NCBI GenBank assembly: GCA_026400395.1
Contig: JAPLPD010000129.1
Span: 1-45,217 of the forward strand
Length of the DNA stretch: 45,217 nt
Origin: Alphaproteobacteria bacterium
Lineage (GTDB): Bacteria; Pseudomonadota; Alphaproteobacteria; Rhizobiales; Xanthobacteraceae
Direction: 5' to 3'
Part shown: positions 1,699-45,217 of the stretch, piece after piece
Layout: each line of letters starts with the position of its first letter
Numbering within the stretch: the stretch's first letter is position 1
The notes under the pieces: model-generated
What the model was told of the DNA's origin: nothing
Database searches by the model: none
What the model saw: only the letters and a program-made list of their open reading frames with translations
Made by a program: the position numbers and the translations under genes

Positions 1699-2201
1699 TG
1701 GCGCGCGCCCGCCCGACTTTCGCACTGCGTCCGTACTTGCCGCAGGACACCGAGATTCTGGCGGAAATCTTTCGCGCCAGCGTCGAGGAACTGACCGAGG
1801 ACGACTACACCCCGCCGCAGCAAGAAGCCTGGGCTTCCGCCGCCGGCGACACGGAGGAGTTTACGGCGCGGCTCGGAAAGCATCTGGCTCTGGTCGCCAC
1901 GATGGAGGGCTCGCCGGTGGGCTTCATATCGCTCGACGCGCCGACCGAGATCGGCCTGTTCTACGTGCATCCGGGTGCTGCTGGGCAGGGCGTCGGCCGG
2001 ATGCTCTATGACGCGGTCGAGAAGATATCGGCGGCGCGTGGCACACCGCACCTTTCGGTCGATGCGAGCGACACTGCGCGCGAGTTCTTCGTGCATCGCG
2101 GCTTCACGCCGGTGCAGCGCAACAGCATTTCGATCGGCAACGAATGGTTGAGCAACACCACCATGAAGAAGACGCTCGCAGCCAACGAGGACAATCCATG
2201 A
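1695..2201 (+). CDS. GNAT-family N-acetyltransferase
   Basis: A 168-residue protein with the GNAT fold. The acetyl-CoA-binding motif A is seen as [19 protein letters not shown] (residues 91-109, R/Q-x-x-G-x-G/A type), preceded by the beta-strand IGLFYVHP and followed by a FFVHRGF motif B-like block. It probably transfers acetyl from acetyl-CoA to a small molecule or protein amine, but the substrate cannot be read from sequence. Its start overlaps the cysS stop (ATGA at 1695-1698) and its own stop overlaps the next small gene, which indicates co-translation with cysS and cimA. Confidence 0.88.
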
Positions 2202-2311
2202 AACGCCCGGACACGCCTTTTCCGCGCCACTGGCGCTATTACATCGTGCTGAAATACCTGGTTCTCGCGGCCGCTGTCGCGCTGGCGCTGAAATACTTCG
2301 GAGTCTGGTGA
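2198..2311 (+). CDS. 37-residue single-pass membrane microprotein
   Basis: The frame reads [20 protein letters not shown] and then a hydrophobic segment (about residues 15-31, Ala/Leu/Val-rich), ending KYFGVW. It begins with a basic, proline-rich cytoplasmic-type lead and would span the membrane once. Its ATG overlaps the GNAT stop (ATGA at 2198-2201) and its TGA (2309-2311) shares a base with the cimA ATG at 2311. Overlaps on both sides argue strongly that it is translated. I do not recognise a function. It could tether or regulate a neighbour, or simply couple translation. Confidence 0.7.
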   Translation: MKRPDTPFPRHWRYYIVLKYLVLAAAVALALKYFGVW

Positions 2312-3936
2312 TGGCCGGCGAGCGCGAGCGCCTCTATCTGTTCGACACCACGCTGCGCGACGGCGCGCAGACCAATGGCGTCGACTTCACGCTGGTCGAC
2401 AAGGTTTCGATCATTCGTATGCTCGACGAACTCGGCATCGACTATGTCGAGGGGGGCTATCCCGGCGCCAACCCGACCGACACCCAGCTGTTCGCCGAGC
2501 CGCGCATGCTGCACACCACGTTCACCGCATTCGGCATGGTGCGTCGGCCGGGACGCTCTGCTTCGAACGATCCGGGTCTCAACGCCTTGCTCGATGCCAA
2601 GGCCGGCGCGATCTGCTTCGTCGCGAAATCGTGGGACTATCATGTGCGCGTCGCGCTCGAGACCACGCCGGAGGAAAATCTCGCCTCGATCCGCGACAGC
2701 GTAAAGGCCGCGCGGGCCAAGGGCCGCGAGGTGCTGCTCGATTGCGAGCACTTTTTCGATGGCTTTAAGGCCAATCCTTCGTTTGCGCTGGCCTGCGCCA
2801 AGGCGGCCTACGAGGAGGGCGCGAGTTGGGTCGTGCTGTGCGACACCAACGGCGGCACGCTGCCGCATGAGGTCGAAGCCATCGTCTCCGAAGTGGTCAA
2901 ACACATCCCCGGCGATCATGTCGGCATTCATGCCCACAACGACACCGAGCAGGCGGTGGCGAATTCGTTTGCGGCCGTGCGCGCGGGTGCCCGCCAGATT
3001 CAAGGCACGCTCAACGGGCTGGGCGAGCGCTGCGGCAACGCCAACTTGGTTTCCATCATTCCGACATTGAAGCTCAAGCGCGAATATGCCGATAAGTTCG
3101 AGATCGGCGTGTCCGACGAGCAGTTGAGAAATCTGGCGCGGGTGTCGCATGCTCTGGACGAGCGGCTCAACCGCTGGCCGAACCGTCATGCGCCTTATGT
3201 CGGCGAAAGCGCCTTCGCGACCAAGGCCGGCATCCATGCCTCGGCGATCCTCAAGGAGCCCGCGACTTACGAGCATGTGGCGCCCGAGGCGGTCGGCAAC
3301 CAACGCCGTCTTCTGGTGTCGGATCAGGCCGGCCGCTCCAACGTGATGTCAGAGCTCGAACGAATCGGCATCTCGGTCGACAAGAACGACCAGCGCGTCG
3401 CCCGCCTGCTCGACGAGGTCAAGGAGCGCGAGGCGATCGGCTATGCCTACGAGACGGCGGACGCCTCGTTCGAGTTGCTGGCGCGCCGCATGCTCGGCAC
3501 CGTTCCGAGGTTTTTCGACGTCAGCTACTTCGACGTGAAGGTCGAGCGGCGCGCCCATAACGGCCAAGGTTTGAAGGGCCAAGGCTTAAAGGGCGAAGAG
3601 GTGCTCACCACCGCTGTGGTCAAGGTCAAGATCGGCGACGACACGCTTATCTCCGCCGCCGAAGGCAATGGCCCGGTCAACGCGCTCGACGTGGCGTTAC
3701 GCAAGGATCTGGGCAAGTACCAGAAGTTCATCGAGGGGCTGAAGCTTACCGACTACCTCGTGCGCATCCTCAACTCCGGCACCGAGGCGGTGACACGTGT
3801 GTTGATCGAGAGCGAGGACGAGACCGGCAACCACTGGACTACGATCGGCGTGTCGGCCAATATCATTGACGCTTCGTTTCAGGCGCTGATGGATTCGATC
3901 ATCTACAAACTCGTGAAGGCCGGCGCTCCGGCCTGA
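2311..3936 (+). CDS. cimA: (R)-citramalate synthase
   Basis: A DRE-TIM metallolyase condensing acetyl-CoA with pyruvate to citramalate, the entry to the threonine-independent isoleucine route. The protein is 541 residues. The N-terminus shows LYLFDTTLRDGAQTNG, the metal-binding HAHND is in HIHAHNDTEQAVANS, and GERCGNANL follows. The C-terminal third is a LeuA-type regulatory domain, the usual site of isoleucine feedback. The start is ATG 2311, overlapping the microprotein stop; GTG at 2308 is the alternative. Near 3562-3591 a 15-base unit is duplicated in frame, giving GQGLKGQGLKG. Isopropylmalate or homocitrate synthase is less likely given the NGVDF form of the substrate loop. Confidence 0.88.
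   Translation: MAGERERLYLFDTTLRDGAQTNGVDFTLVDKVSIIRMLDELGIDYVEGGYPGANPTDTQLFAEPRMLHTTFTAFGMVRRPGRSASNDPGLNALLDAKAGAICFVAKSWDYHVRVALETTPEENLASIRDSVKAARAKGREVLLDCEHFFDGFKANPSFALACAKAAYEEGASWVVLCDTNGGTLPHEVEAIVSEVVKHIPGDHVGIHAHNDTEQAVANSFAAVRAGARQIQGTLNGLGERCGNANLVSIIPTLKLKREYADKFEIGVSDEQLRNLARVSHALDERLNRWPNRHAPYVGESAFATKAGIHASAILKEPATYEHVAPEAVGNQRRLLVSDQAGRSNVMSELERIGISVDKNDQRVARLLDEVKEREAIGYAYETADASFELLARRMLGTVPRFFDVSYFDVKVERRAHNGQGLKGQGLKGEEVLTTAVVKVKIGDDTLISAAEGNGPVNALDVALRKDLGKYQKFIEGLKLTDYLVRILNSGTEAVTRVLIESEDETGNHWTTIGVSANIIDASFQALMDSIIYKLVKAGAPA
3562..3591 (+). repeat. Tandem 15-bp in-frame duplication inside cimA
   Basis: Units at 3562-3576 (GGCCAAGGTTTGAAG) and 3577-3591 (GGCCAAGGCTTAAAG) differ at two positions. 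They encode a repeated GQGLK in the linker before the regulatory domain. The reading frame is kept. Confidence 0.8.
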
Positions 3937-39892: not shown

Positions 39893-40881
39893 CCGCCGAA
39901 CTTGTCGCGCCAACTCGGCAGTGCGCCGGCAAACGGCAATGCCCGCGCCTCGTACACGCCACGGGCAATGGCGCGGGCGACCACGTCGGCGGCGAGCGAG
40001 CCCAACTCGGCCAGCGCGATGACCGGATCGGCGAGGGGGGTCGCGCCGGTTGCTGCTGCGAACACCAGGTCGCCGTCGAGCGGAGTGTGGACCGGCCGCA
40101 GCGCTCTCGCCATGCCGTCTTGCGCCATCATCGCGAGCCGCCGCGTTTGGGCCTTGGTCAGGGCCGCGTCGGTTGCGACCACCACCAGCGTTGTGTTCTC
40201 GCCGGCCTGACCTTTGGCGCGGAAGGCGAGCGCCTCCGGCGGTACGGAGGCGGGGAAACCGCGCCCGCCGAATTCGCCGCCGCGCTCAAATGGCGCGGCC
40301 CAGAAATGCGGCCCGCCGCCAATGACCGCAGATCCCACGGCATTGACCACGGCCAACGCGCCGACGGTGACGCCGCTGCGTGTCTGCGCCGATGCGGAGC
40401 CAAGCCCGCCTTTGAGATCGGCGGTGGTGACGCCGCACCCAGCGCCGGTGCTTCCCAGATTGAAGTCGGACGTTGCGCTGGCCGTTGCGGCGTAGCCGAG
40501 TTCTCGATACGGCGGATAGAGGCCCCAATCCTTGTCGCCGCCGTTCAGCAGGTCGAACATCACCGCCGCCGGCACGATCGGCACCAGCGCCGTGCGCACG
40601 GCGTAGCCGCGCCCATGCGCGCGCAGCCAAGCCTGGGTGCCGGATGCGGCATCGAGGCCGAATGCCGAGCCGCCGGAGAGCGTGATGGCGTCGATGCGCT
40701 CGACCGTCATGGCTGGATCGAGCAACGCGCTCTCCCGTGTGCCGGGCCCACCGCCGCGCACGTCCACCGCCGCGACCGCCGGCTCGTCGAACAGCACGAC
40801 GGTTGCACCCGAGCCTAGCTGGCGGTCGTCGGCATGGCCGACGCGGACGCCTGCGACATCGGTGATGAGGTTTCTCGCCAA
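39889..40881 (-). CDS. P1-family (S58, DmpA/NylC-type) peptidase
   Basis: A 330-residue self-processing N-terminal-nucleophile hydrolase. The N-terminal domain has ITDVAGVRVGHADD and LSGGSAFGLDAASG. The central TTADLKGGLGSAS is diagnostic. The cleavage site is N229-T230 in GENTTLVVVATDAALTK, freeing Thr as nucleophile, as in the nylon-oligomer hydrolase NylC and the aminopeptidase DmpA. Substrates may be beta-peptides or omega-amino acid oligomers; the true one is unknown. It reads leftward and is divergent from ccdA. Confidence 0.9.
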   Translation of the reverse strand: MARNLITDVAGVRVGHADDRQLGSGATVVLFDEPAVAAVDVRGGGPGTRESALLDPAMTVERIDAITLSGGSAFGLDAASGTQAWLRAHGRGYAVRTALVPIVPAAVMFDLLNGGDKDWGLYPPYRELGYAATASATSDFNLGSTGAGCGVTTADLKGGLGSASAQTRSGVTVGALAVVNAVGSAVIGGGPHFWAAPFERGGEFGGRGFPASVPPEALAFRAKGQAGENTTLVVVATDAALTKAQTRRLAMMAQDGMARALRPVHTPLDGDLVFAAATGATPLADPVIALAELGSLAADVVARAIARGVYEARALPFAGALPSWRDKFGG

Positions 40882-40896
40882 AATTCAAAGACTCCA

Positions 40897-40953
40897 ACGG
40901 GCGTGAACCATACCAGATCAAGCGCCGATCACATCAGCGCCAGCCACGCCCGT
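40897..40953. promoter_or_regulatory. Long-spaced 9-bp inverted repeat between divergent peptidase and ccdA
   Basis: ACGGGCGTG (40897-40905) and CACGCCCGT (40945-40953) are perfect complements separated by 39 bases in the 113-base divergent spacer. This could be a paired operator for both genes or an accident of GC-rich sequence. Confidence 0.25.
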
Positions 40954-40994
40954 TCCGCTTGCGCCCGTCCGCCGGTCCATGCATCTAGGGCACG

Positions 40995-41729
40995 ATGACA
41001 CCCGACGTGACCCTTCTCGCCGCGCTGCTTGCCGGGCTGGTTAGCTTCCTCAGCCCATGCGTGCTGCCGCTGGTGCCGCCGTATCTCGTCTACCTTGCCG
41101 GCACCTCGCTGGAGCGGCTTGCCGATGGGGAGGCCGTGTCCCAGACCCGTCGCGAGACGGTGCTGGCGGCATTGCTGTTCGTTTGCGGTTTCTCAACGGT
41201 GTTCGTCGCGCTGGGAGCAAGCGCCAGCGTCTTTGGCGCGCTGATCCGAGTCTATTCGGCCGAACTTTCCATCGTTGCTGGCATCGCCATTATCCTCATG
41301 GGGCTGCACTTTCTGGGCGTGCTACGGATCAACGTGCTGCTGCGTGAAAAGCGGCTGGAAATGGCCAAGCCTGTCGGGCTGTGGGGCGCCTACGCGATGG
41401 GGTTGGCTTTCGCGTTCGGCTGGACACCCTGTATCGGTCCGATCCTCGCCGCGATCCTTGCGGTTGCCGCCTCCGAGCAAACGGTGGCAAAGGGCGCGGG
41501 ACTGCTCGCGGTCTATTCGATGGGCCTTGGCATTCCGTTTCTGCTGGCGGCGTTTGCGGTCGAGCCGTTCGCCGAGTTCCTGTCGCGTTTCCGCCGCCAT
41601 CTTGCCCAGGTCGAGCGCGTCATGGGCGGGCTGCTGGTGTTGACTGGCATCGCTTTTCTGACCGGCTTCGTGTCGCGGGCAAGCTTCTGGCTGCTTGAAG
41701 CATTTCCGGCGCTCGGCAGCATCGGTTAA
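40995..41729 (+). CDS. ccdA: Cytochrome c biogenesis protein CcdA
   Basis: A six-helix inner-membrane thiol-disulphide transporter of 244 residues that passes reducing power to periplasmic thioredoxin-like proteins for cytochrome c maturation. The paired reactive cysteines are C22 in SPCVLPLVPPY and that in GWTPCIGPIL, on the two pseudo-symmetric halves. The ATG at 40995 is a GC-flanked start without a strong ribosome-binding site. It is followed by a small two-helix membrane protein 39 bases later. Confidence 0.93.
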   Translation: MTPDVTLLAALLAGLVSFLSPCVLPLVPPYLVYLAGTSLERLADGEAVSQTRRETVLAALLFVCGFSTVFVALGASASVFGALIRVYSAELSIVAGIAIILMGLHFLGVLRINVLLREKRLEMAKPVGLWGAYAMGLAFAFGWTPCIGPILAAILAVAASEQTVAKGAGLLAVYSMGLGIPFLLAAFAVEPFAEFLSRFRRHLAQVERVMGGLLVLTGIAFLTGFVSRASFWLLEAFPALGSIG

Positions 41730-41768
41730 ACCGCATCCTGATCTGCCGGCGCGATTCGGATTGCTGCG

Positions 41769-42365
41769 ATGGTTCCACTCTGGGAAATCCTGTGGGTGCT
41801 GGCGGCGCTGGTGACCGGCATCGTCATGTTTGGCGCGTGGACGGGGCCGCACCGCGTCATTTCGAACCTGTCGCGGTGGGCGATTTGGATGCGCATCCGC
41901 CCAGTTCCGGCGTGGCTGAGCGCCCGATCCGCCGACCGCTGGGCGTTTCGCGGCGGTCTTCTGTTGTTGGTGTTGCTGCTCGCAATCGCTTGGTTCGTTC
42001 CGTCGCTGTCGCCGCCGGAGACGCCGGCGGCTGTGCCTGATAGCAGCGCGGCTCCTACCAAGCCCGCGGATCGCCCCACGCGTCCGGACCGGCATATCGA
42101 TGTCGATCTGCAGAATGCCATCCGGGTGCATGTCCCGAAAGCCAAGCGGGTTAGGATCGTGGTGTTGAAAGACGATCCGGAGGCCGATCAGTTCGCCTGG
42201 GAGATCGATGCGTTCCTCCGGGCCGAGGGGTACACGGTCGTCTCGCCGAGGCTATTTTTTGCGATGACCGAAGGGGCAATGACGCCGGTCGGCACGGCCA
42301 TTTACCCAGAGGAAAAAGACCTGAACATCGTCAATATCCGCATAGGTTTGAACGACCGACCTTAG
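41769..42365 (+). CDS. Hypothetical two-helix membrane protein
   Basis: A 198-residue protein that I do not recognise. There are two hydrophobic segments (about 6-25, WEILWVLAALVTGIVMFGAW; and 62-78, GLLLLVLLLAIAWFVPS). A Pro/Ala/Thr-rich linker (about 82-110) leads to a soluble C-terminal domain starting IDVDLQNAIRVHVPKAKRVR, with alternating strands such as RIVVLKDDPEADQFAWEIDAF and VNIRIGLNDRP. It resembles a nucleotide- or toprim-like small alpha/beta unit, but no motif settles that. It follows ccdA in the same direction and may be in its operon. A promoter for the next genes begins right after it. Confidence 0.7.
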   Translation: MVPLWEILWVLAALVTGIVMFGAWTGPHRVISNLSRWAIWMRIRPVPAWLSARSADRWAFRGGLLLLVLLLAIAWFVPSLSPPETPAAVPDSSAAPTKPADRPTRPDRHIDVDLQNAIRVHVPKAKRVRIVVLKDDPEADQFAWEIDAFLRAEGYTVVSPRLFFAMTEGAMTPVGTAIYPEEKDLNIVNIRIGLNDRP

Positions 42366-42383
42366 CGCGCATTCTTTCCGCTC

Positions 42384-42414
42384 TTGACCAATTGTTCATG
42401 TTTTGTTCTATAAA
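42384..42414 (+). promoter_or_regulatory. Promoter with an alphaproteobacterial LexA (SOS) box
   Basis: TTGACC (42384-42389) and TATAAA (42409-42414) are 19 bases apart. Between them, and ending directly against the -10, is GTTC-ATGTTTT-GTTC at 42394-42408, the GTTC-N7-GTTC LexA site known from alphaproteobacteria such as Rhodobacter recA. A repressor here would block polymerase. The eight fixed bases alone would be met about once by chance in a window this size, so the position is what makes it convincing. The target genes are the leader and Cys-rich frames just downstream. Confidence 0.65.
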
Positions 42415-42447
42415 CTCCCTTCGAGATTCGAGAGCGGGAGTTCGAAC

Positions 42448-42510
42448 ATGCGAGCTTATCTTGTGGTCTGGGCGGCCAGACGAAAGCTGATCTGGGCGAG
42501 GCGGCCATGA
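42448..42510 (+). CDS. 20-residue leader peptide ahead of the Cys-rich protein
   Basis: ATG 42448 opens MRAYLVVWAARRKLIWARRP, ending in TGA at 42508-42510, which overlaps the next ATG (ATGA at 42507). The peptide is basic and Trp-rich. An AGAGCGGGAG stretch lies 8-17 bases upstream. Stop-start coupling to the following gene and the promoter immediately upstream suggest it is a real translated leader. It could be regulatory, or a small membrane-active peptide. Nothing like it is known to me. Confidence 0.45.
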   Translation: MRAYLVVWAARRKLIWARRP

Positions 42511-42692
42511 CCTCGCGTTATCTCGAAGTCGGCTCGCCAATCTGCTGTTTCCTGCCGTCGTGCCGGAAGCCGTTTCTGAGCACCTGCATCCACGGCAACG
42601 ACGGACATTTTTACTGCTCGCAATCGTGCGCGGAGGAGGGGTCCAAGAACGACCTCACCCGTGTCGAACCATTGCGTGCGGCGCGAAAATAG
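42507..42692 (+). CDS. Cys-rich 61-residue protein, putative zinc-binding, SOS-controlled
   Basis: The sequence begins MTSRYLEVGSPICCFLPSCR and continues to a Cys/His-rich core (C13, C14, C19, C27, H29, H34, C37, C41) with C-x3-C at 37-41 and CIHGNDGHFYC at 27-37. Spacing suggests one small zinc site, but it fits no named finger family that I know. It is too small to be an enzyme and could bind DNA, RNA or a protein. Its ATG overlaps the leader stop, and the pair lies behind a LexA-type box, so it may be damage-inducible. A strong terminator follows 79 bases later. Confidence 0.7.
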   Translation: MTSRYLEVGSPICCFLPSCRKPFLSTCIHGNDGHFYCSQSCAEEGSKNDLTRVEPLRAARK

Positions 42693-42770
42693 CAATCTGC
42701 CCTCCTGGCTTTTCCCCGAAGCCACGACTGGCGGACCGTGTGGAGGACTTGGACAAGTCCCACCACGCAC

Positions 42771-42798
42771 AAAGGCCCGGCCGCACCGCCGGGCCTTT
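42771..42798. terminator. Rho-independent-type terminator
   Basis: AAAGGCCCGGC (42771-42781) pairs perfectly with GCCGGGCCTTT (42788-42798) over a 6-base loop, with CTATTTT after it on the plus strand. It ends the Cys-rich gene message rightward. Because the stem carries A/T pairs at its foot it probably also ends the convergent leftward livK-type gene. Confidence 0.85.
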
Positions 42799-42832
42799 GC
42801 TATTTTGGATCGCCACAACGCGATCAGAAACG

Positions 42833-43954
<1,122 letters not shown>

Positions 43955-44041
43955 GCCGTTCTCCTCAAGTTGCGGACCTCAGTGGTCGCCCCGACCGCGA
44001 TCTCTGGGCAAGCATCATTCTGGCGGGTTTTTGCAGCGCGG

Positions 44042-44428
44042 TCACCGGGGCGAATTGGCGCTGGCGACAGGATTTTCATTGTCCGCCCCGCGATCGCGCC
44101 AGGTGAGCGGGCTGGTTCGCTCATAGAGCCAGTAGTATTGCGTCGCCATCTGGGTGGCCCGCGTCATCCGCCAGGCCAGGGCGCCGACGATGATCAGGTA
44201 TAGCGTGTCGGCGGCGTAGGAGGCGGGCGACAGCAGCGTTCCCTCGAACAGCGCGAAATGCACGAACCGCACCGCGGCGCCGAGCATCGCCATATAAACC
44301 AGGACGTTCCAGAACGGCCGCCAGGTCTGGGCGATGGCGCGTCCGGCGAGGAACGCCGCGCCGCCGCCGAGCACGCCGGTTACCAGCAGGATTTGGAGCG
44401 GCGATTCCAAGGCGTAGAGTTCGTCCAT
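44042..44428 (-). CDS. DUF6867-type small membrane protein
   Basis: A 128-residue membrane protein with about three hydrophobic segments: residues 12-32 (ILLVTGVLGGGAAFLAGRAI), 39-58 (NVLVYMAMLGAAVRFVHFAL) and 68-85 (YAADTLYLIIVGALAWRM). The pattern GRAIAQTWRPFWNVLVYMAMLG, then TRATQMATQYYWLYERTSPLTWR, matches my recollection of DUF6867 proteins, which sit inside liv-type ABC transporter clusters in Hyphomicrobiales. Here it lies 87 bases upstream of the LivK-type gene, in the same direction. Its function is unknown. Confidence 0.75.
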   Translation of the reverse strand: MDELYALESPLQILLVTGVLGGGAAFLAGRAIAQTWRPFWNVLVYMAMLGAAVRFVHFALFEGTLLSPASYAADTLYLIIVGALAWRMTRATQMATQYYWLYERTSPLTWRDRGADNENPVASANSPR

Positions 44429-44500
44429 CGTCGCGCCTTTACGGGCCGGCTGCCGATTCAGCTAGGATGCTAGCACATCGTCTCGAACCGGGGCCGGCGT

Positions 44501-45217
44501 ATGTCCAATTCATCCAGTGCAAAGCGTCCAAACTTTCTTCTGTTCATCACCGATCAGCACCGTGCTGATTTTCTGGGCTGCTACGGGCATCCGGTGCTGC
44601 GGACGCCAAACATCGATTCGATCGCCGAGCGCGGCACGGCCTTCGACAAATTCCATGTGGCGAGTCCCGTCTGTCAGCCGAACCGCGCGAGCCTGATGAC
44701 CGGGCGCATGCCCTCGGTACACGACGTGCGCAGCAACGGCATTCCGCTGTCGATGAACGCGGTGACCTTTGTCGAACTGCTGTCCGACGCCGGCTACCGC
44801 ACCGCGCTGGTCGGCAAGAGCCATCTGCAGAACTTCACCCAGCACGATCCGATCATCAAACGGCCGCCGCCGCGCGAAGGCTTCCACGAGCCGTCGCCGG
44901 GGCTGCGGCAGGCGCTGCGCAACGATCTCGCGGACGCCAAATACGAGCAGGAGACGCCGGCCTATTGGACCAAGCCGAACGCCCACGTGCAGACGCCGTT
45001 CTACGGCTTCGAGCATGTCACGCTGGTGCGCAATCACGGCGACGAGGCCGGCGCGGATTACGAGAGTTGGCTCGACGCGCGTGACCCGAAGGCGAGGGCA
45101 ACGCTGCTTGGGCCGAAGAACAGCCTTCCTCACGAATACACGGTGCCCCAAGCCTACCGCACGGCGATTCCGGAGGAGCTTTACGCCACCGCGTTCCTCG
45201 GCGAGCGCGCCTGCGCC
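44501..45217 (+). CDS. Sulfatase (alkaline-phosphatase superfamily), partial at window edge
   Basis: The frame is open from ATG 44501 to the window end, 239 codons without a stop. The N-terminus NFLLFITDQHRADFLGCYGH supplies metal ligands (D18, Q19). The sulfatase signature C-x-P-x-R is C58-R62 in SPVCQPNRASLMTGR, where the Cys would be turned into formylglycine by a sulfatase-modifying enzyme. VGKSHLQNF adds the Lys/His pair. Arylsulfatases, choline sulfatase and phosphonate monoester hydrolases share this layout, and the missing C-terminal half would decide between them. No signal peptide is visible, so a cytoplasmic location is likely. Confidence 0.9.
   Translation, partial: MSNSSSAKRPNFLLFITDQHRADFLGCYGHPVLRTPNIDSIAERGTAFDKFHVASPVCQPNRASLMTGRMPSVHDVRSNGIPLSMNAVTFVELLSDAGYRTALVGKSHLQNFTQHDPIIKRPPPREGFHEPSPGLRQALRNDLADAKYEQETPAYWTKPNAHVQTPFYGFEHVTLVRNHGDEAGADYESWLDARDPKARATLLGPKNSLPHEYTVPQAYRTAIPEELYATAFLGERACA

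Follow-up and report, generated by a model that had tools for sequence, protein, structure and literature searches.

A small transcription unit in the window (the whole stretch of DNA analysed, 45,217 nucleotides) encodes a 20-aa basic leader and a 61-aa Cys protein, here called module B, behind a LexA-type box. As far as sequence and comparison go, the pair of SOS-regulated microproteins is real, and SOS regulation of the unit, as judged from its relatives, is very probable. The explanation that we favour, to which we give about an even chance, is a LexA-repressed SOS unit whose product would be a one-zinc accessory factor of SRAP and/or Ku/LigD repair.

Layout of the unit and strength of its LexA box

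The region 42384-42799 contains, in order, TTGACC, a GTTC-N7-GTTC box, TATAAA, GGGAG, a 20-aa ORF, a 61-aa ORF and a stem-loop (Table 1), and every element listed in an earlier note on this DNA (the box between the two hexamers, the basic leader, the overlap, the Cys protein and the terminator) is present. The leader stop and the B start share four bases (ATGA, 42507-42510), and therefore translation of the two is probably coupled. The unit is compact, since the preceding 198-aa ORF stops at 42365, 18 bases 5′ of the -35-like hexamer, and the next gene downstream, which carries a periplasmic binding protein domain, is convergent; read-through into the unit from the 198-aa ORF is possible. A promoter scan of 40000-45217 that allowed hexamer spacings of 16-18 found none, being blind to the promoter of the unit because its spacing of 19 lies outside that range. 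The position equivalent to TATAAA is TATAAG in genomes G007 and G005 (locus G005a) and on contig C122 of the window's own genome, and TTGAC was found 2-7 bases 5′ of a box 24 times in seven genomes, compared with three times for a reversed control pattern. The terminator region (42755-42815) folds with -27.4 kcal/mol (z -3.86). A sub-threshold Rfam match to the Caulobacter sRNA CC0196 (22.2 bits, gathering score 35) lies over the terminator at 42747-42798.

Table 1 Features of the unit in the window, modules of the related cassette, and module order at other loci
Feature	Position	Strand	Basis or description
TTGACC, -35-like hexamer	42384..42389	+	sequence
LexA box GTTCATGTTTTGTTC, GTTC-N7-GTTC	42394..42408	+	pattern, matrix, alignment with five other sites
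TATAAA, -10-like hexamer	42409..42414	+	sequence; spacing to -35-like hexamer 19 bases
GGGAG, likely ribosome-binding site of leader	42436..42440	+	sequence; inference
Leader ORF, 20 aa, MRAYLVVWAARRKLIWARRP	42448..42510	+	LVVWAARRK core common to G007
Cys protein (module B), 61 aa	42507..42692	+	homologues; dN/dS
Intrinsic terminator-like stem-loop	42770..42799	+	fold energy; GC-rich, 12 pairs, T-rich tail
Module A			about 93-103 aa; Cys pairs
Module C			about 27-33 aa; hydrophobic
Module D			81 aa; MSVTYYVALPF...
Module E			about 70-98 aa
Module F			about 100 aa; divergent
Locus G207			SRAP-F, box, A-B-D, then Ku
Locus G088			SRAP-zinc-type gene-E, box, D-B
Locus G005a			F, box, A-like DNA-B-C-D
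Locus G007			F, box, leader-B-C
Own-genome C122			box, E-C-D; D shortened to 46 aa

The bare 8-base GTTC-N7-GTTC pattern is no more than chance would give in the window (3 found, 1.65 expected; genome-wide 150, against 95 for a reversed control), while the full site is above chance, scoring 30.4 bits on the box matrix compared with 7.7 for the runner-up site of the window. The training set of this matrix was 25 boxes that precede gene D (module D in Table 1), all from other genomes and including one outlier, L119 (-3.3). When the genome was searched with GTTCWNGTTWTGTTC, allowing up to one mismatch, nine matches were obtained as against two for the reversed control pattern. The earlier note had expected such a box about once by chance, and this is true of the bare 8-base pattern alone, failing once the flanks and middle are counted.

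The placement of the box fits a site that blocks its promoter and, as in a LexA regulon, the same genome encodes LexA (domain match at C43:20117-20308) with a box in front of its own gene (C43:20039-20053, starting 78 bases before the domain match). Six exact GTTCWNGTTWTGTTC matches occur in the genome. Besides the window site, they lie ahead of a small-protein operon on C122, next to ssb (with uvrA on the far side, separated from the box by a 226-aa ORF), next to a radical-SAM gene, next to a gene resembling imuA by eye (no Pfam match), and near a dnaE-like gene, assigned by eye. The arrangement corresponds to the alphaproteobacterial LexA regulon described in Caulobacter, in which the same GTTCN7GTTC box sits between promoter hexamers; the window genome likewise has lexA and repair genes with boxes. 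Two early Caulobacter SOS genes are described as having the common box GTTCttgttatGTTC (PMC12700426), and no regulon member of the present sequence was recognised in literature listings.

Other boxed loci were noted in passing. In the own genome, one box precedes a gene encoding a SocA/Panacea antitoxin-like domain (L023, G000:C171), and a weaker box (15.3 bits; L029, G000:C227) lies just 5′ of a gene that is radA-like by eye and for which Pfam gives AAA and zinc-ribbon matches. Genome G007 has TTGAC-box promoters in multiple copies, at 13 places, four of which carry TTGACATGTTCTCTTTTTGTTC or a one-base variant of it, a repeated SOS promoter.

Retention of the box, the leader and the Cys protein

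The search for B homologues gave 17 matches outside the own genome. Nine were clear (E 3.5e-12 or better; one in G007, two in G005, four in G004, and G088 and G207), five were weak (G023, G189, G175, G324 and G161), and three (G064, G230 and G360) matched only a piece of the profile and were excluded from the box count. With the own genome and the weak matches included, B was found in 14/391 family genomes; in the order it was found in 1/397 genomes, the own genome being the one.

An exact same-strand box lies within 600 bp of B at 5/9 clear homologues and 0/5 weak ones (5/14 in all), and a TTGAC-box promoter stands in front of B at five of the nine clear homologues, from three genera. With starts placed by eye, the box-to-B distances are -113 in the own genome, -107 in G007, -337 and -313 at the two G005 loci (G005a and G005b), -335 in G088 and -313 in G207. 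The four clear homologues that have no exact box within 600 bp all belong to genome G004. At G004a a box lies about 680 bp from B and faces a divergent gene; G004b retains a degenerate half site, seen by eye; and neither G004c, where B looks intact, nor G004d, where the cysteines of B are lost, has a box in the 11-12 kb fetched. The earlier note had stated that homologous loci keeping the small genes and lacking the box would refute its proposal: loci with no exact box within 600 bp do exist (4/9 clear and 5/5 weak homologues), and the box is kept at the other five clear ones.

These counts bear on a reading in which the box is a chance match and the unit is transcribed from the upstream operon or constitutively. 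The expected frequency of the bare pattern in the window and the four clear homologues with no exact box speak for such a reading; the 30.4 bits of the site against 7.7 for the runner-up, and retention at 5/9 loci against a chance rate of about 0.0085 per locus derived from genome-wide counts (the loci not being independent), make it scarcely probable. SOS control as put forward in the earlier note gains support, through sequence comparison, from lexA and repair genes with boxes of their own in this genome and from the box at five of the nine clear homologues.

By inspection, the leader consists of a short hydrophobic run followed by basic residues. The earlier note had suggested searching relatives for the pair of leader and Cys protein, and the leader core was found to be kept in one of them, G007, which has the same arrangement with the leader MFSAFLVVWAARRKVRRG. 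The nine codons shared by the two leaders differ at five bases, all in third position and all synonymous (5/5; the probability that five random changes are all synonymous is 0.0006), and because these differences are all synonymous the leader is probably translated and constrained, if rare. The core occurs with no mismatch in 2/296 genomes (the window genome and G007) and with one mismatch in two more, G030 and G111, where no B was seen near it in the fetched loci. The idea that the leader is a relic of module A was dropped, as DNA alignment gave no clear match.

The window copy of B has six cysteines, with the conserved ones kept, in the spacing C-x4-C ... C-x3-C with YCSxxCA, which we take to resemble a single treble-clef zinc site. 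In four pairs that include the window copy dN/dS is 0.16-0.27, and B looks to be under purifying selection on this comparison. B reached the cut-off of no Pfam family and had no NCBIfam match. The best matches among solved structures, the metallothioneins (PDB 6gv7), were not significant (E 0.04): the weak alignment with bacterial metallothionein (PF02069) covers the Cys region, DGxxYCSxxCA, and the profile score of 14.5 bits is below the Pfam cut-off of 33, placing B outside the family. Unlike metallothionein, the window B with its six cysteines is more like a single zinc finger. An AlphaFold model of four sequences had a mean pLDDT of 52, too poor for a fold search, and was not used as evidence. 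PADLOC anti-phage defence profiles matched B, D and A in 0 families at E up to 1.

A modular cassette beside SRAP, Ku and LigD genes

In relatives, other small ORFs surround B in varying order behind a box of this kind (Table 1); none of the module examples scanned reached a Pfam cut-off. The window itself showed none of modules A, D, E and F. B therefore appears, from the compared loci, to be one exchangeable member of a cassette of which the window unit would be a cut-down form. The description of the unit as self-contained stands for the window locus; in the wider view the unit resembles a reduced form of a modular cassette.

Module D, present in 131/296 family genomes, allowed the association with the box to be counted independently of B. 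Thirty D loci, among the best-scoring of a longer list, were examined and all were counted; in 25 of these 30 an exact box lies no more than 600 bp upstream of D, on the same strand in eight cases and on the opposite strand only in 17. In the controls, 1/30 had a box in an equal downstream stretch, and 4/30 had a match to four other spacings taken together. One boxed locus (L119) scores like chance, and one D locus had only 95 bp upstream. The box is also found on plasmids, at 5/6 D loci (H2, H3, H4, H6, H8 and H9, chosen by hand from 12 records) and 4/5 A loci (H13, H20, H23, H33 and H34, chosen by hand); for E, one of two records (H53) was chosen by hand.

SRAP genes adjoin three of the nine clear B loci (G004a, G088 and G207), and a Ku gene adjoins one (G207, where SRAP is present too); at the other 6/9 neither was found in the fetched stretch of 8-16 kb. 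Ku stands head to head with D at four of the 30 best-scoring D loci (loci of about 3 kb) and adjoins 1/6 of the plasmid D loci examined. A further plasmid E-D locus has both a box and a Ku neighbour, with ligD in the same stretch, and ligD follows one plasmid A locus. Pfam confirmed the SRAP genes of G004 and G207 and the Ku gene of G207; the remaining SRAP and Ku genes were assigned by tblastn or annotation. A 46-kb IMG/VR contig classed as viral (L146) has, at 1783-3243, an SRAP gene 66% identical to that of G004, a box near 2957 and then a D gene.

Neighbourhoods of SRAP and Ku have been described, in the passages of the paper used here, as encoding two uncharacterised Zn-chelating, Zn-ribbon-like domains (Aravind 2013, PMC3765255). 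Modules A and B may be these two domains, and as small Cys-pair proteins in such neighbourhoods they would fit; those passages describe neither a LexA box at these genes nor a shuffling of modules. Among open-licence PMC papers, screened by titles and abstract openings, no description of the cassette or its LexA control was found. In contrast to the Zn-chelating domains of Aravind 2013, the window copy of B lies away from both SRAP and Ku. The only SRAP gene found in the own genome is on another contig, with no box in its 3.6-kb locus, and both Ku genes are on other contigs. Because neither SRAP nor Ku is near the window locus, a repair role there would follow from the homology of B by itself.

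The lack of A, D, E and F in the window, together with decay at other loci (the lost cysteines of G004d, and no intact A frame listed at G005a), could mean that the box is functional and B a degenerating remnant that has lost its cassette partners. The kept cysteines and the low dN/dS of the window copy argue against decay, and we give this reading a slim chance.

The plasmid loci raise a different reading, in which SOS control is genuine and B and its partners are cargo of mobile elements, helping integrating elements or plasmids during SOS and not the repair of host DNA. At G004a the cassette adjoins a tyrosine integrase; Bradyrhizobium and Sinorhizobium plasmids, many of them classed as conjugative, carry D, E and A (module A gave 23 records on Sinorhizobium and Rhizobium plasmids); and B is patchily distributed. 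The window copy, however, adjoins DsbD-type and periplasmic-binding domain genes and others that look metabolic by eye, and D is present in 131/296 genomes of the family, a spread that speaks against cargo. B itself had no match in phage records (E 1) or plasmids (E 0.01), no PHROGs match was better than E 0.1, and no relative was confirmed among viral contigs (24 pattern stretches checked); a phage origin of B was therefore set aside, and the mobile-cargo reading is considered unlikely, though not negligible.

Predicted function of the unit

The accessory repair factor that we favour would operate as follows. In an undamaged cell LexA, bound to the box, would block transcription from the promoter whose hexamers flank it. 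Upon DNA damage, RecA-stimulated cleavage of LexA would free the box, and a short mRNA would be made on which the basic leader is read first, its stop overlapping the B start, so that leader and B would be produced together after derepression. B is predicted to be a one-zinc, treble-clef-like protein (C-x4-C ... YCSxxCA) that most likely binds nucleic acid or protein as an auxiliary factor of SRAP repair (at abasic sites), of Ku/LigD repair, or of both. We infer this repair role from the neighbours of B at other loci, and it is a reasoned guess.

The earlier note had suggested that a small zinc-type protein induced by damage might inhibit division, replication or repair, and a product acting as a checkpoint or stress factor on division or replication would also be compatible with SOS control. 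Small SOS-induced inhibitors exist, such as the 29-aa SidA of Caulobacter (PMC4211646), and at G005a and G007 B is followed by a tiny hydrophobic peptide ORF of the MWxxxFxV type. In the window no such ORF follows B. By inspection B contains no long hydrophobic run or membrane segment and neither B nor the leader has a transmembrane segment of the SidA/DidA type, the likeness to SidA-type division inhibitors being limited to small size and (for SidA) SOS control. The known neighbours at other loci are repair genes, and the informative ones point to SRAP and Ku repair. Nothing found supports inhibition of division or replication by the unit; a role as division inhibitor was set aside, and the checkpoint reading as a whole is quite unlikely. 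A likelier candidate in this genome is a membrane-type ORF of 32 aa, which two boxes precede and a DnaE-like gene follows.

That ORF (L022, G000:C102, from 1796), which follows its two LexA boxes and is flanked by genes resembling lolD and dnaE by eye, is a candidate SidA-like division inhibitor. In Caulobacter, sidA presumably adjoins dnaE.

Returning to the repair factor, a wider proposal is that the Hyphomicrobiales carry an undescribed branch of the SOS response. Unnamed small proteins (A and B with Cys pairs, C a membrane peptide, and D, E and F of no family) would be exchanged behind a single LexA box and would serve SRAP or Ku/LigD as attached adaptors, through which abasic-site repair and end joining are tuned. 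The unit in the window would then be the most stripped-down form of this branch, with the leader peptide replacing A. We offer this tentatively, as having somewhat less than an even chance of being correct. Given the presence of D in 131/296 genomes and a box at 25 of the 30 best-scoring D loci, a sizeable share of the SOS response may rest on unnamed proteins, and the position of some cassette members beside SRAP and Ku/LigD hints at a way in which damaged cells could route abasic sites and broken ends.
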